Source: Roseomonas sp. (GTDB taxonomy: Bacteria > Pseudomonadota > Alphaproteobacteria > Acetobacterales > Acetobacteraceae). Taken from it: DNA of 64,000 nt. The notes beneath the pieces are model-generated. The model made no database searches. It saw only the letters and a list, made by a program, of their open reading frames with translations, and was not told where the DNA came from. Every line of letters starts with the position of its first letter. Positions within the stretch are counted from its first letter, which is position 1. The stretch spans positions 62,001 to 126,000 of the forward strand of contig JADCFA010000012.1 of NCBI GenBank assembly GCA_020249775.1. Reading direction: 5' to 3'. Both the position numbers and the translations under genes were made by a program. Shown here in pieces: positions 14,646 through 64,000 of the stretch.

Positions 14646-15526
14646 GTGAAAATCAGCGCCGCGCCGGCAGCGTTTTCGGGCGGCACCATGATGCCTTCCG
14701 GCGCTTCCCGCGTGGGGATACCGGCCAGGATGCGCCGGGCAGAGGCTGCGCTATCGCCAGTACGCACCACCATCCCCGCCATGAAGGGTGAGGCCGGCGG
14801 CACCACGCCGGGCAGCACAGCGCCAAGCGCTTCCGGCGTCAGTATCCTGACGCGGGTTTCAAGCACTGGCGCCTTCGGCCCGGCAGCGCGCGCCGCACCG
14901 GGCAGGCGGAGCAGGAAGCCCCCCGCCGGGTCCGGTTCCACCGGCAGGCCGGACAGGCGCGAAAGCCGCGCGGCGGTCTCGGCGGGGTTGTCGGCGCATA
15001 AAATGGCGGCTTCCAAAACCTCGGCCTTGTTGGCGTGGTCCATCCAACGATCCTGCCAGACCAATTCGGGCGTGAGGTGCCGGATCAGCTGCACCCGGCC
15101 CTCGGGCGGGTCGGGGAAGGGCAGGCGGGCAAAGCGCGCAATCGGCCCGCCCGCCTCGACAGGTCGTTCCAGATAGGCAACGCCTGGAATATCAAGCCCG
15201 GCGGCGCGCAGGCGGTTCAGGTTCGCATCCTCATCCAGCATGGCGAGTGCCAGGATATGCATCCCCGCATAGCGCGCCAGAAAGGCGTTCAGATTATTGT
15301 CGAATAGCGCCGGGTCCAGGATCGCGATCAGCTCGATATAGCCATGCTTCAGGAAGGCGCAGCGATTGCCGGAGCCGTATTTCTCCACCGGCAAATCAGG
15401 CCGCCGCCGCCCGCTTTGCTGCGCAATCGGCGATAGCGTGAAGCCGAGCCTTTCATAGGCCGCGCACATCGGCGCCAGATCGCGCGCCGCGACGCCAAGA
15501 TGGTCAAGCGCAAGGGCGGTATTCAT
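14642..15526 (-). CDS. VOC family protein with glyoxalase-like domain
   Basis: 294 residues. The N-terminal beta-alpha-beta module LDHLGVAARDLAPMCAAYERLGF is the vicinal-oxygen-chelate opening. YGSGNRCAFLKHGYIELIAI supplies a probable metal Glu, and a second weaker module spans about residues 165-290. This matches the Glyoxalase_3-like single-chain group of unknown substrate. The ATGA overlap (15523-15526) with the GST gene and the GTGA overlap with the FkbM gene show a tightly coupled three-gene operon. A detoxification or ring-cleavage role is possible but unproven. Confidence 0.82.
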   Translation of the reverse strand: MNTALALDHLGVAARDLAPMCAAYERLGFTLSPIAQQSGRRRPDLPVEKYGSGNRCAFLKHGYIELIAILDPALFDNNLNAFLARYAGMHILALAMLDEDANLNRLRAAGLDIPGVAYLERPVEAGGPIARFARLPFPDPPEGRVQLIRHLTPELVWQDRWMDHANKAEVLEAAILCADNPAETAARLSRLSGLPVEPDPAGGFLLRLPGAARAAGPKAPVLETRVRILTPEALGAVLPGVVPPASPFMAGMVVRTGDSAASARRILAGIPTREAPEGIMVPPENAAGAALIFT

Positions 15527-59566: not shown

Positions 59567-60793
59567 ATGGCGGAACCGCATCGCCCGCTGGATGGGATTC
59601 TCGTTCTTGATCTCGGGCAGATATATCAGGCGCCTTATTGTTCCTTCCTGATGGCGATGGCGGGCGCCACCGTCATCAAGATTGAACCTCCTGGGGGCGA
59701 ATCTTTGCGCCGCCGGACGATGGTTTCCGGTGGTTCCGTGCCGCAGGCCATGCTGAATTCCAACAAGCTTGGCATTTCGATTGACTTCAAGAATGAAGCA
59801 GGGCGCGAGCTGTTTCTTTCCATGGTGGATCGCGCCGATATCCTGATTGAGAATTTCGCGCCGGGCGCGATGGACAAACTTGGCCTGGGGCAGGAAGTGC
59901 TGCTGGCCCGCAACCCGCGCCTGATCTATGCGGCGGCATCCGGCTATGGCCGTTCCGGGCCGGATCGCGACAAGCTGGCGATGGACCTGACCGTGCAGGC
60001 GGCGTCCGGCATTATGCACACCACGGGTTTCCCGGATGGGCCGCCCGTGAAATCCGGCCCGGCGGTGGTGGATTTTCTGGGCGGCACGCATCTTTACGCG
60101 GCTGCCATTACCGCGCTGTTTGACCGCGAACGCACTGGACGCGGGCGCTTTGTTGAAATTGCCATGCAGGATACGGTTTATCCGTGCCTTGCTTCCGCGC
60201 TTGGCATGCATTTCGGCGGGCTGCGCGGCAAGATCCCGCCGCGCACCGGCAATTCCCATGCGGGGCTCGCTATGGCGCCCTATAATGTCTATCCGACGAG
60301 CGATGGGTATCTGGCGATTATTGTGGTCAAGGAAGACCATTGGAACCGCCTGCTGCGCGCCATGGGGCGCGAGGATTTGATGGGCGATCCGCGCTTCGCG
60401 ACCAACCCCGCGCGCGTGCAAAACATGGCCGAGGTTGATGCCATGGTGACCGCCTGGCTTGCCGGCATGACGCGCGAGGAAGCTGTCGCCGCCACGCGCA
60501 AATTCGGCGTGCCGGCTGCCCCCGTGCGCGATTTGGATGAGGTGATCAATGATACCGGCATGCATGAACGCGGCATGCTGCATTGGGTGGATCATCCGGA
60601 GGTTGGGCGCGTGTGCCTGCCATCCTCACCTTTGCGCTTCACGGACGCGCCGGCGCCGGCACTGAAGCCGAGCCCATTCCTGAACCAGCATGCGGAAGAA
60701 GTGCTGGGGGGGATTTTTGGGTTTTCCGCGGCAGAACGCGCGGCACTGCGGGAAGCAGGCGCAATCAGCACGGCGGCGCAAGTGAAGGGGTAG
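59567..60793 (+). CDS. Family III CoA transferase (CaiB/BaiF)
   Basis: 408 residues. PLDGILVLDLGQIYQAPYCS begins the standard domain order. ATVIKIEPPGGESLR, ILIENFAPGAMDKLG and RLIYAAASGYGRSGP follow. The nucleophilic Asp is D140 in LAMDLTVQAASG, the usual position. The C-terminal half carries TGFPDGPPVKSGPAVVDFLGGTH, MAPYNVYPTSDGYLAI and KFGVPAAPVRDLDEV. It moves CoA to a carboxylic acid, probably feeding the acyl-CoA dehydrogenase just upstream. Confidence 0.94.
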   Translation: MAEPHRPLDGILVLDLGQIYQAPYCSFLMAMAGATVIKIEPPGGESLRRRTMVSGGSVPQAMLNSNKLGISIDFKNEAGRELFLSMVDRADILIENFAPGAMDKLGLGQEVLLARNPRLIYAAASGYGRSGPDRDKLAMDLTVQAASGIMHTTGFPDGPPVKSGPAVVDFLGGTHLYAAAITALFDRERTGRGRFVEIAMQDTVYPCLASALGMHFGGLRGKIPPRTGNSHAGLAMAPYNVYPTSDGYLAIIVVKEDHWNRLLRAMGREDLMGDPRFATNPARVQNMAEVDAMVTAWLAGMTREEAVAATRKFGVPAAPVRDLDEVINDTGMHERGMLHWVDHPEVGRVCLPSSPLRFTDAPAPALKPSPFLNQHAEEVLGGIFGFSAAERAALREAGAISTAAQVKG

Positions 60794-60803
60794 GGGGGCA
60801 GGT

Positions 60804-61025
60804 ATGAGCGCGATGCTGGAATACAAGGGGTATTTTGGGTCCGTCGAATACAGCGATGAGGATGAGGTGCTGCATGGCCGCCTTGAGTTTATCCGCGATC
60901 TGGTGACCTATGAAGGCAAGGACGCCAAAGAGATCAAGGCCGCCTTTCAGGAAGCCGTGGATGACTATCTTGGACTGTGCGAGGCCGAAGGCCGCAAGGC
61001 TGACGTGACGCTAACTGGAACCTAA
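60804..61025 (+). pseudogene. HicB-like antitoxin, truncated (C-terminal DNA-binding domain missing)
   Basis: 73 residues. Matches only the N-terminal HicB pseudo-RNaseH domain: MLEYKGYFGSVEYSDEDEV, LHGRLEFIRDLVTYEGKDA, and DYLGLCEAEGRK. Full HicB proteins are about 110-140 residues and continue with a helix or ribbon-helix-helix DNA-binding part. Here a stop follows TLTGT and the other frames show no continuation. No hicA toxin is adjacent. The break coincides with the change to low-GC DNA, so an insertion probably removed the 3' end. It may still be expressed as an N-domain fragment. Confidence 0.7.
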
Positions 61026-61406
61026 GGAAAATGCCGAGTAAAAAAGTAGTCTGATGCAATGATAACTTGACAGCGGCCAACGACTGAACAAGGCTCGGAC
61101 CGGGGAGGAGAATTTACTTGCCATCTTGCTAACAAGGGCGCTATCTTTTTAAAGATTTGTCTCACGGTAAAAGCAGGTCGGTCCAGCTACTTGGATGGCT
61201 AAACTATTCAAAAAACCGAACTGCGGTGGTGTCGTAAAAAGGCGAACACTTGCCCACGCCTTTAAGAGCGTAGTCCAAAACCGAACCAGGGGAAGTGACA
61301 AGCTAGGCAAGTACTACCAAGTTTGCCATTGACCGACGCTTGCTTCTGTATCGATTCCTTGAAGGTAAACATCATGCCGGCATAGGTTGCCTGTTAGGAA
61401 GTGATT
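61026..61406. other. 381-bp gene-free region upstream of the OLD gene
   Basis: No open frame of note and no tRNA cloverleaf. It holds a TTGACA hexamer (61067-61072) without a clear -10 partner, an AT-rich dyad ATCTTT/AAAGAT (61142-61155), a hairpin AAAGGCG/CGCCTTT with a 12-nt loop (61238-61263), and two near-repeats of AACCGAAC. It could contain the promoter and possibly a small RNA; this is not proved. Confidence 0.4.
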
Positions 61407-63347
61407 ATGAAAATCAAAGCTCTCATTCTTGAAAATTTTCGGTCTTACAAAGACCGGACCTTAATCCCTTTAGCTCAATTGACGGGCTTCATTGGACGCA
61501 ATGATGCTGGAAAATCAACAATATTAGAAGCTCTCGATATTTTTTTCGAGGGCGCAGTAGTAAAAATTGAGCAGTCTGACGCAAGCAAAGGCGGCAATCC
61601 ACGAGGTGTACGTATTGGTGTTGTGTTTGATGACCTACCGGAGCAGTTAATTCTAGACTCAAATGCACCGACGACCCTGCAAGCTGAGCATCTACTAAAT
61701 GCAGGCGGAGATCTTGAAATACACAAGATATTTAATTGCGCTAATCAAATTCCGAAAGCCGTGATTTCAGCCCAAGCAATACATTCTACATCCCCAGAGG
61801 CCGCCACAATTCTGCAAAAGAGCCAGCAAGAGCTCCGTAGAATAGTCCGGGAAAAAGGGCTAGAGAACAATTGTAATCTTGCAGAAAATCCGTCTATGCG
61901 ACAAGCGATATATCAATCAATTGGAGAGCTAGATTTACGATTGCGTGATGTGCCATTAAACGAGGAAAACGGCAAAGCGATATGGTCCTCACTTCAATCT
62001 TACATGCCGATATTCGCACTCTTCCAGTCCGATCGCCCGAGCAGTGATCAAGATCCAGAAGTGCAGAACCCAATGAAAATCGCCATTGAGCGAGCACTTG
62101 AGAATCTTGAGCCGGAGCTTGAACGAATTACGGTCGAAGTGCACAAGAGAGCTCAAGAAACAGCGCGAAGGACACTTGAGAAACTGCAGGTAACGTATCC
62201 CGAGATCGCCTCAACGCTTGAACCAAGATTCAAGAAACCATCATGGAAGAGTATTTTCAAGCTCGATCTGGAGGCTGATGATGGCATTCCGCTGAACAAG
62301 CGAGGCTCTGGAGTTCGTCGTCTTATTCTTCTAAGCTTCTTTCAAGCCGAAGCCGAAAAGCGGCGCGCGGAGGCGCAGGCGGGCAATGCTCCGCGCAGGC
62401 GAGTGGTCTATGCCATCGAGGAGCCAGAGACGTCCCAGCATCCAGACAGCCAAGAGCAGATTATCAGTTCCCTGAAGACGCTGGCGGAATCAGGCGATCA
62501 AGTTGTACTCACGACTCATGTGCAGGGACTGGCTGCGCTCATTCCGCTTGAGAGTTTGCGCTTTATTGACCGGGATCCAACGACCAATACGGTTCGCATA
62601 CGCAGCGGAGAACAAGATGCCGGGGTGTATGCCGATATCGCTGATGCTCTCGGAGTGCTTCCCGATCCCCTTGCCAAACAGGGAATCAAGGTCGCGGTTC
62701 TTGTTGAAGGAAAGACCGACATCGACGCTCTATCGTCGATGATTCAGGTTTTAGCTGCCGCCGGAGAGATTACTCCCATAGATGAGAATTCTATATTTTG
62801 GACGATTGGCGGTGGTGACAACACACTCAAGGACTGGGTTGAACGTCGATATCTCGATAAACTCAACGTTCCGCAGGTAATGTTGCAAGACTCAGATCGG
62901 ACCAGTGCTTCTCTGCCGATTAGAACCGACAAAACGGCTTGGCTTCACGACATGCGGGCGAGGCCAAATACAACAGCCTTCCTTACAAGGAAACGTAGTA
63001 TGGAGAATTACCTGCACCCGGATGCAATCGCGCGGCTCACAGGAAACCTACTCACTCTGCCGGCCGGGATAGACCTCGATTACGTAAAGATGGCGGACGA
63101 ATTTTCTTCGCATCTAACTGCAGCTCGACAGAACGCAGGTCAAACAGGCTTCAACTATCGACCCGATGACCACAATGGAAGGCCAATTAGCAAGACCGAT
63201 GTGGCGGCATGCAAGAGAATTATTTGCTCGCACATTATGCGTCACATGACTGCTGAGGAAATAAGGCAAAGAGCATTGTATTATGACGGTGCTGGGGAGA
63301 AACATGAAATCATGGAATGGATCGAAGCCATTAAGACGCATTTGTGA
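61407..63347 (+). CDS. OLD-family ATP-dependent endonuclease (ABC ATPase plus TOPRIM)
   Basis: 646 residues. N-terminal SMC/ABC ATPase: Walker A GRNDAGKST (residues 30-38), signature GSGVRRLILLSFF (300-312), Walker B VVYAIEEPETSQHP (333-346) and H-loop VVLTTHVQGL (367-376). C-terminal TOPRIM: VLVEGKTDIDALSSM (431-445, catalytic Glu434), LQDSDRT (493-499, DxD), and KRSMENYLHP (529-538), a nuclease motif seen in OLD and GajA proteins. Probably an anti-phage nuclease activated by ATP/NTP state. Single gene: no GajB helicase, RT or AriB follows. AGGA 8 nt before ATG 61407; GTG 61401 is an alternative. Lower GC than its neighbours, indicating transfer. Confidence 0.93.
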   Translation: MKIKALILENFRSYKDRTLIPLAQLTGFIGRNDAGKSTILEALDIFFEGAVVKIEQSDASKGGNPRGVRIGVVFDDLPEQLILDSNAPTTLQAEHLLNAGGDLEIHKIFNCANQIPKAVISAQAIHSTSPEAATILQKSQQELRRIVREKGLENNCNLAENPSMRQAIYQSIGELDLRLRDVPLNEENGKAIWSSLQSYMPIFALFQSDRPSSDQDPEVQNPMKIAIERALENLEPELERITVEVHKRAQETARRTLEKLQVTYPEIASTLEPRFKKPSWKSIFKLDLEADDGIPLNKRGSGVRRLILLSFFQAEAEKRRAEAQAGNAPRRRVVYAIEEPETSQHPDSQEQIISSLKTLAESGDQVVLTTHVQGLAALIPLESLRFIDRDPTTNTVRIRSGEQDAGVYADIADALGVLPDPLAKQGIKVAVLVEGKTDIDALSSMIQVLAAAGEITPIDENSIFWTIGGGDNTLKDWVERRYLDKLNVPQVMLQDSDRTSASLPIRTDKTAWLHDMRARPNTTAFLTRKRSMENYLHPDAIARLTGNLLTLPAGIDLDYVKMADEFSSHLTAARQNAGQTGFNYRPDDHNGRPISKTDVAACKRIICSHIMRHMTAEEIRQRALYYDGAGEKHEIMEWIEAIKTHL

Positions 63348-63553
63348 GATTGCCCTAAGTGTGTGAAACTACGCTGTTCGTCTGACAGTGACCGCTTGTC
63401 GAGCAGGTTGCGGGCGACTGTAGGGTTGGCAATTTTGGTCTCGCTGGTCACCTCAATGGGGCCTAGTCTTGCCTGGCTCTCGGAGATGCCACCGATCAGC
63501 GCCGGCTCGTTAATGATGCGCCGTTCGATACGGGAGTGCTCGTAGGATGGCAC
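63348..63553 (-). pseudogene. Possible truncated coding fragment, unrecognised
   Basis: A leftward frame, start GTG 63553, encodes about 55 protein-like residues (YEHSRIERRIINEPALIGG, ARLGPIEVTSETKIANPTV). It then continues as unconvincing sequence into the OLD 3' end (to 63281). There is a stop 39 bp upstream in the same frame and no ribosome site. It may be the remnant of a gene broken on island insertion. I do not recognise the family. Confidence 0.25.
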
Positions 63554-63601
63554 GCTGTAGAACGTCTTAAGAATAGAACAAAGTTATACAAAGACCCCCC
63601 C

Positions 63602-64000
63602 CTACCCCCTATCCCGCATCAACCGCGCCTTATCCCGCTGCCAATCCCGCGCCGCAATCGCGGCCCGCTTGTCATGCTTCTTCTTGCCTTCAGCCAACCC
63701 CAGCAACACCTTCGCCCGCCCGCGTTCATTGAAATGAATATCCAGCGGCACAAGCGTCGCCCCGTCGCGCGTGATGGCGCCGATCAATTCGCGGGCCTGC
63801 TTCCGATGCAGCAGCAATTTTCGCGGGCGGCGCGGTTCAAACCGCGCCATGAAGGAACCCGCCTGCCATTCCGGGATATGGGCATTGAACAGCCACATCT
63901 CCCCATCGCGTTCGCCGGCCCAGGCTTCGGTCAGCGTGGCCCGCCCGGCGCGCAAGGACTTCACCTCAGGCCCCACCAGCGCAAGCCCCGCCTCGATGGT
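63602..64000 (-). CDS. smpB: SsrA-binding protein SmpB (partial, N-terminus off right edge)
   Basis: 133 residues in the window, continuing beyond the right edge. Begins within [19 protein letters not shown]. Core features: [29 protein letters not shown] and [25 protein letters not shown]. The basic C-terminal tail ([20 protein letters not shown]) enters the ribosomal mRNA channel. SmpB with tmRNA rescues stalled ribosomes and adds a degradation tag. The family N-terminus of about 20-25 residues is missing. Its 3' end borders the low-GC island. Confidence 0.96.

Follow-up and report, generated by a model that had tools for sequence, protein, structure and literature searches.

A 64,000-nucleotide stretch of a Roseomonas sp. 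genome (contig JADCFA010000012.1, positions 62,001 to 126,000; hereafter the window) holds, between a caiB-like CoA-transferase gene and smpB, an island with a single intact gene, which encodes a protein of the OLD family with an ABC ATPase and a TOPRIM nuclease domain. Our preferred reading, to which we give a probability of about 0.68, is that the gene was acquired horizontally and codes for a stand-alone ATPase-nuclease of the OLD family. Most likely it protects against phages by abortive infection as a single gene, and it is one of many interchangeable cargos of a hotspot between caiB and smpB.

The island and its gene

The part of the window with the lowest guanine-plus-cytosine (GC) content, measured in 2.5-kb windows at steps of 250, spans positions 61026–63598. 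The GC content is 0.490 for 61026–63590, against a mean of 0.623 (standard deviation 0.027) for 2.5-kb windows of the whole stretch, island included. The abrupt change in composition and the essentially single gene described in the first-pass annotation are thus both confirmed, as are the flanks that it named, a broken hicB-like gene on one side and smpB on the other. The hicB-like frame codes for the N-terminal part of HicB, which in relatives is 116 residues long (PF05534) and adjoins HicA (PF07927); the 73-residue piece by itself has no match in Pfam. Likeness to the DNA of relatives ends at about 61006–61012 on the left and resumes at 63594–63601 on the right. The OLD protein has no match at E ≤ 0.001 in any of the 34 other genomes of the genus (several incomplete, down to 77%), so the relatives do not carry the gene at this site, and the leader DNA in front of the gene is present in only one of the 35 genomes, its own. 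Of 385 genomes sampled from the host's class, two have a match at E ≤ 1e-60, again including its own. Judged by composition and by comparison with relatives, the island is a horizontally acquired foreign segment with one gene.

The OLD reading frame contains no internal stop and starts at 61401 (GTG) or 61407 (ATG), the 646 residues being counted from the ATG. The match of its N-terminal part to the Pfam family AAA_15 has an E-value of 7.6e-69. In 19 aligned sequences, the Walker A residues K36 and S37, E338, E339, H371 and the TOPRIM residues E434, D438, D495 and D497 are identical throughout, while residue 533 is a glutamate in 18 and an aspartate in one; the motifs expected of an OLD-type protein, reported earlier from the letters alone, are therefore in place. 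In the alignment, E377, D381, D431 and D433 of the T. scotoductus OLD protein (Ts OLD), whose active-site roles are described in excerpts of PMC7049728, line up with E434, D438, D495 and D497. The OLD TOPRIM model PF20469 stays below its cut-off in the window protein (0.059), and its best value among the four of nine aligned members that match at E ≤ 1 is 6.9e-4. About 111 residues follow the E-N-Y motif. Compared with a 66%-identical protein from a Hyphomicrobium metagenome-assembled genome, the nonsynonymous difference is low (pN 0.225) and the synonymous difference saturated (pS 0.875); selection thus preserves the amino-acid sequence. By these measures the gene is intact and under strong protein constraint, and, as read from its motifs, an N-terminal ABC ATPase and a C-terminal TOPRIM domain share one chain, which is the criterion for membership of the OLD family.

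Family placement

A profile built from nine sequences matches the solved structures of Ts OLD (6p74; 2.6e-21), GajA (4.5e-14), PtuA (1.5e-11) and AriA (about 8e-7), and far more weakly than Ts OLD also Rad50 (3.7e-6); these scores favour OLD over a grouping with RecF or SMC proteins. Against this, the NCBIfam matches, all far below cut-off, are led by RecF (1.5e-6), followed by PtuA (1.7e-6). When the 19-row alignment is compared by hhalign, P2 Old is matched at 98.2% (E = 4.5e-14, 420 columns) and YbjD at 75.2% (E = 2.5e-05, 237 columns). The whole protein also matches the Old model of PADLOC (1.2e-28).

A phylogeny, proposed at first pass as a means of placing the protein, was built from 36 rows and gave an answer in part. 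The protein lies in a well-supported clade of 23 rows (99/97) that excludes P2 Old, YbjD and the GajA-like rows; the joins among these four are poorly supported (46/28), and the placement of the clade relative to the others did not follow. The GajA-like proteins were chosen by one hidden Markov model, with the adjacent helicase unchecked, one row (L135) was omitted as a fragment and another (L141) entered with its N-terminus uncut. YbjD, P2 Old, L002 and L138 form long branches, Ts OLD and V. cholerae OLD stand outside the tree, and it includes no RecF or SMC protein. The clade spans Pseudomonadota, Bacillota, Bacteroidota, viral contigs and plasmids. Relatives of the protein were found at 15 loci in viral contigs, and 365 plasmid records match at E ≤ 1e-10; in 252 of them a single place spans 80% or more of the query, and 293 of the 365 are typed as conjugative. 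One OLD relative, 34–35% identical (L130, 5001–6827), makes up 26 of the 30 plasmid rows listed; these are enterobacterial and mostly annotated as AAA family ATPase. Relatives at three further loci (L015, L016 and L017) have a similar ATPase and are shorter (506–537 residues), with a C-terminal end that by eye is unlike TOPRIM.

By context, as a single isolated gene, the window protein is a Class 1 OLD protein. It shares with the members of that class (P2 Old, Ts OLD, V. cholerae OLD and YbjD) the isolated gene and the order of ABC ATPase and TOPRIM, and with Ts OLD the acidic positions of the active site. It differs from them in falling into the separate clade and in its length, 646 residues, about 111 of them past the E-N-Y motif, against 586 for P2 Old and 552 for YbjD. 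Class 1 proteins are further characterised by being shorter than Class 2 proteins and by lacking their C-terminal helical domain. The lack of a partner had been presented at first pass as unusual; this does not stand, as Class 1 OLD proteins are isolated genes by definition (excerpts of PMC7049728 and PMC10568477). Class 1 OLD is reported in 0.45% of bacterial genomes (PMC13261556, in part). GajA of Gabija, a Class 2 OLD protein, has the same domain order and the profile match given above; unlike Gabija, the window gene has no helicase among its immediate neighbours, and the GajA-like rows fall outside the clade. Unlike the type I-B retrons (Class 3 OLD), the island contains neither a reverse transcriptase nor an Rfam match over threshold, and the model NF038234 reaches 22.6 bits against a cut-off of 250.

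The protein may instead be a merged PARIS system, in which an AriA-like sensor ATPase and an AriB-like DUF4435 tRNase are fused in one polypeptide; fused PARIS is known from the available parts of PMC9122126 and PMC12409363. The top PADLOC match of the whole protein is indeed AriA (1.8e-55), although this match is limited to residues 1–371. As in merged AriA-AriB, ATPase and TOPRIM lie in one polypeptide, and the C-terminal E-N-Y region aligns with the E-I-E-N-L-F of two single-frame proteins with an ATPase-like part and DUF4435; hhalign matches this pair at 83.5% (E = 8.4e-06, 169 columns). The match to P2 Old is both longer and stronger. DUF4435 (PF14491) is not among the 12 Pfam families that match the window protein at E ≤ 1, and for the nine aligned members it is not among the best 25 of 38 families, whereas the OLD TOPRIM model matches four of the nine. 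The C-terminal 227 residues alone match the PADLOC models PDC-M55B (1e-4), HEC-01B (0.0028) and Old (0.0075), none named AriB. On the absence of DUF4435 and AriB from these lists and the stronger match to P2 Old, we have demoted the merged PARIS and consider it unlikely. Single frames of 575 and 566 residues, with ATPase-like motifs before DUF4435 and in this resembling merged PARIS, occur in two genomes of the same family (L154 and L155).

Cargo between caiB and smpB

The site was compared in 18 smpB-bearing contigs from the 17 genomes with the closest SmpB (at least 92%), its own (G000) included; smpB was found in 33 of the 35 genomes of the genus, again with its own. The features of the window are collected in Table 1.

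Table 1. Features at the caiB/smpB site, in window coordinates
Feature	Position	Strand	Basis or remark
caiB-like CoA-transferase gene, left anchor	59567..60793	+	full-length copy, same order and orientation, in 10/17 close genomes including its own; plasmid matches annotated CoA transferase
AAGGGGTAGGGG at caiB stop, left edge of variable interval	60785..60796	+	exact 12-mer once in genome
5' piece of a hicB-like gene; the rest of the gene and hicA are missing	60804..61025	+	73 residues, against 116-residue HicB plus HicA in relatives
Island leader, 381 bp, GC 0.47, no function detected	61026..61406	.	folding, Rfam and comparisons with relatives' DNA
OLD-family gene: ABC ATPase AAA_15 (residues 1–372), TOPRIM (about 429–540), C-terminal extension to 646	61407..63347	+	
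Decayed IS481-type element end	63361..63419	-	tip about 14 bp past the OLD stop codon; score against shuffles
AGGGGGTAGGGG at smpB stop, inverted one-mismatch copy of caiB motif AAGGGGTAGGGG, right edge	63599..63610	-	
smpB, right anchor, 5' end outside window	63602..63976	-	PF01668, E = 3.5e-39

In G000, G008, G012, G019, G022, G023, G029, G031, G033 and G034 smpB shares its contig with a full-length caiB, which lies upstream. In these ten genomes the stops of the two genes are 1.4–4.6 kb apart, and the interval runs from stop to stop, bar short runs of G or C. The left flank of the other seven is different, rearranged or off the contig, and caiB DNA was not found beside smpB in G004 and G030, the sole more distant members of the genus fetched. 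The GC content of the intervals is 0.42–0.55, against 0.615–0.66 on the adjoining smpB side, and no empty site was seen among the 18 contigs; cargo is hardly visible in three short intervals of 313–544 bp (one in G025 and two in G024). The site may be a rearrangement breakpoint. In G027 the acd-caiB pair beside the site runs the opposite way from that in the other genomes (L108, 1–1776 of the oriented copy), and the left flanks also differ in G006, G007, G014 and G026.

The cargos are varied. They include an XRE/ImmA-like protein with a DUF4411 PIN-like protein (G006), an Abi_C/AbiJ-like protein (G014), HicAB in several genomes, an FkbM methyltransferase (G019), a DnaJ-domain protein (G012), glycosyltransferases (G027), an FGE-sulfatase protein (G023), a sucrase/ferredoxin-like protein (G007) and several unknowns. 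When all 18 intervals are compared with one another, cargo on the smpB side is common to G026, G033 and G034 only, as a set of three genes, the first of which encodes a TIGR04255 protein in G034; G019 and G034 have in common the FkbM methyltransferase next to caiB, a hicB module is present in seven of the ten caiB-anchored intervals, with hicA in some, and the other matches are repeats of 27–75 bp.

Some cargo borders carry a repeat of about 60 bp, which is the end of an element with an IS481-type transposase fragment; the fragment beside the element end in L122 matches NF033577 at E = 3.9e-45 (154.5 bits, below the full-length cut-off of 224). The end in the island itself scores 54 against the L122 element end, where 60 shuffles reach at most 30. 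These shuffles, 60 per case, were simple two-base block shuffles, and the scanned intervals were of unequal length. No left-hand end is detectable in the island (score 21, shuffles mean 21.4). The repeat is dispersed, occurring in 12 of the 35 genomes of the genus, this one included. A rightward-pointing end is clearly above shuffles in six of the 18 intervals (G006, G007, G014, G019, G029 and G031) and a leftward-pointing one in five (G000, G007, G014, G019 and G026; weak in G029 and one G024 contig), while ten intervals have no clear end. Both ends are clear in G007, G014 and G019. Three unrelated cargos (at L102, L101 and L098) are flanked on either side by such ends, each about 60 bp long, in inverted orientation and with the tip toward the cargo; we infer that this cargo is not part of the elements but sits between two inverted IS481-type copies, next to their inner ends.

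Copies of the anchor genes' own ends are a second feature of the intervals. Extra copies of the caiB 3' end lie inside those of G008, G014, G019, G024, G026 and G034, with a 45-bp copy in G006, and extra copies of the smpB 3' end inside those of G019, G026 and G034. They stand between cargos, at 15206–15533 in L098, 4506–4833 and 5531–5750 in L099 and 5681–5817 in L111 (oriented copies), and look as if units or cassettes had been stacked. In G026 the IS481-type end is left of the smpB-end copy and not at the border of the smpB-side cargo. Within one mismatch, AAGGGGTAGGGG has two sites in the window, where 0.10 are expected, and both are at the edges of the interval. Since the genome has the exact 12-mer just once, we rejected it as a genome-wide insertion signal; the inverted pair may be a signal or a chance likeness between the ends of two genes.

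The comparison suggests a cargo hotspot that resembles a minimal mobile element with IS481 involvement. Minimal mobile elements, described in Neisseria (PMC3082526, in part), are differing whole-gene cassettes between two conserved genes, just as caiB and smpB flank differing whole-gene cargos across genomes. The recurrence of the hicB module and of the FkbM cargo fits this less well, and the site further differs in the IS481-type ends at several cargo borders, the anchor 3'-end copies inside and the genomes, which are different species and not strains. With the defence hotspots of E. coli (excerpts of PMC9122126) and of P2/P4 phages it shares a fixed site with changing cargo; unlike these, its intervals are small, no integrase was noticed and much of the cargo is without a known defence function. 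A bolder view, which we hold only tentatively, is that the interval is a site-specific cargo port and the OLD clade found there a further class of single-protein defence, with a mechanism intermediate between those of P2 Old and merged PARIS. The IS481-type ends and the anchor 3'-end copies with the inverted AAGGGGTAGGGG would then delimit the units of cargo, and these would be inserted, stacked and swapped although they have no integrase themselves.

Partners and a role in defence

We infer the defence function, the trigger, the substrate and the way of cargo exchange as follows. If the protein works as Ts OLD and P2 Old do, the dimer of the ABC ATPase would keep the TOPRIM domain inactive until a change caused by the phage, which in P2 Old is the loss of RecBC, frees it. 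The TOPRIM site (E434, D438, D495, D497 and E533, of the two-metal type) would then cut host tRNA or DNA, and growth would stop. Homologous recombination within the anchor genes would exchange the cargos, some of which would have been brought in by IS481 elements. Excerpts of PMC13261556 name RecBC inhibition as the trigger of P2 Old, and a host tRNA is said there to be cut; the TOPRIM and Walker residues of P2 Old are required to kill recBC cells (PMC10568477, in part).

A role in defence is plausible from family and neighbours. Neighbours were compared in 24 loci including its own, taking frames of at least 80 residues within 5 kb. Of ten large neighbouring proteins from six loci, picked by hand from the 12 large frames listed, nine match PADLOC models at E ≤ 1e-15, all nine from five loci: DrmD-type in L008, JetC and DrmD-type in L010, a type III restriction enzyme and AbiU in L011, a type III methyltransferase and restriction enzyme in L014, and a type I methyltransferase/specificity protein and PDC-S73 in L084. 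The tenth, from L013, has no match. In Vibrio, a type I restriction-modification operon with a SIR2 protein adjoins the OLD relative; the relative on an E. coli plasmid is preceded by ParB-family and AAA-ATPase genes of the opposite strand.

Several points weigh against a single-gene defence system. The tested neighbours were not a random draw, so that they give a plausible case by guilt by association in a chosen sample. A RecD-like helicase gene lies upstream of the OLD relative in Azospirillum, on the same strand, and a recombinase-family gene upstream of that in Erwinia. At the caiB/smpB site, three of ten cargo proteins match PADLOC at E ≤ 0.001 (capP 2.8e-15, AbiJ 1.8e-8 and LmuB 1.2e-4), seven do not, and many cargos are not defence-like, among them the FkbM methyltransferase, the DnaJ-domain protein, the glycosyltransferases and the FGE-sulfatase and sucrase/ferredoxin-like proteins; the site is therefore not purely a defence hotspot, and location alone is no argument for defence. 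Among known relatives, YbjD of E. coli, a Class 1 OLD protein, remains anti-phage when its TOPRIM domain is removed, and knocking the gene out gives no phage phenotype (PMC13261556, in part); the archaeal OLD protein Cran1 is reported to serve the cell cycle. Defence by cleavage is therefore not to be taken for granted.

OLD relatives with partners are known in Gabija and retrons, and the 381-bp leader is otherwise unexplained, so the protein could belong to a multi-gene or RNA-assisted system whose partner lies in the leader or at another place of the genome. The Azospirillum helicase and a PDC-S73-type neighbour family found in two of the 24 loci (L084 and L089) would suit such a system. However, no recurrent partner was found: when the 202 neighbouring frames are clustered, two families occur in three loci each, all in viral contigs, the remainder in two, and none in more than three. 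As the first-pass annotation had observed, no helicase, AriB or reverse transcriptase is present among the immediate neighbours, which are caiB, the truncated hicB and smpB (genes past smpB are not annotated). Its suggestion that the leader acts as a second, non-coding component is not upheld. The leader folds no better than shuffles (z -0.24; 39 of 100 shuffles are equally good), no Rfam family matches in it, the single weak match of that search lying behind the OLD gene (13.3 bits against a threshold of 50), and the loci of 21 relatives give two chance-level matches only, of 14 and 17 bases. There is no convincing small gene in its 381 bp, and positions 60700–63700 hold one sigma-70-like match where 2.5 are expected by chance. 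A non-coding RNA or small gene in the leader was therefore rejected, and we think a multi-component system improbable. We are equally sceptical of a travelling chromosome-maintenance or selfish addiction gene outside defence, which the kinship of the ATPase to RecF, Rad50 and SMC proteins and the silent YbjD knockout would allow, given the sparse distribution of the gene in genus and class and the frequent defence genes among the chosen neighbours.

A single-gene OLD class and conserved anchors with changing cassettes are both already known kinds; we found no description of this OLD clade, looked for through searches on OLD proteins only, or of the site with its mixture of IS481 ends and anchor copies, looked for in one search by name. 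Of the branches of the OLD family, that of the isolated genes is understood least, and a clade that extends over several phyla, viral contigs and plasmids makes trigger and substrate, DNA or tRNA, testable outside P2 Old. The site amounts to a natural experiment on a small scale, in which the same anchor gene has nearly always another cargo beside it in each relative, and it would be a cheap place to seek further single-gene systems.

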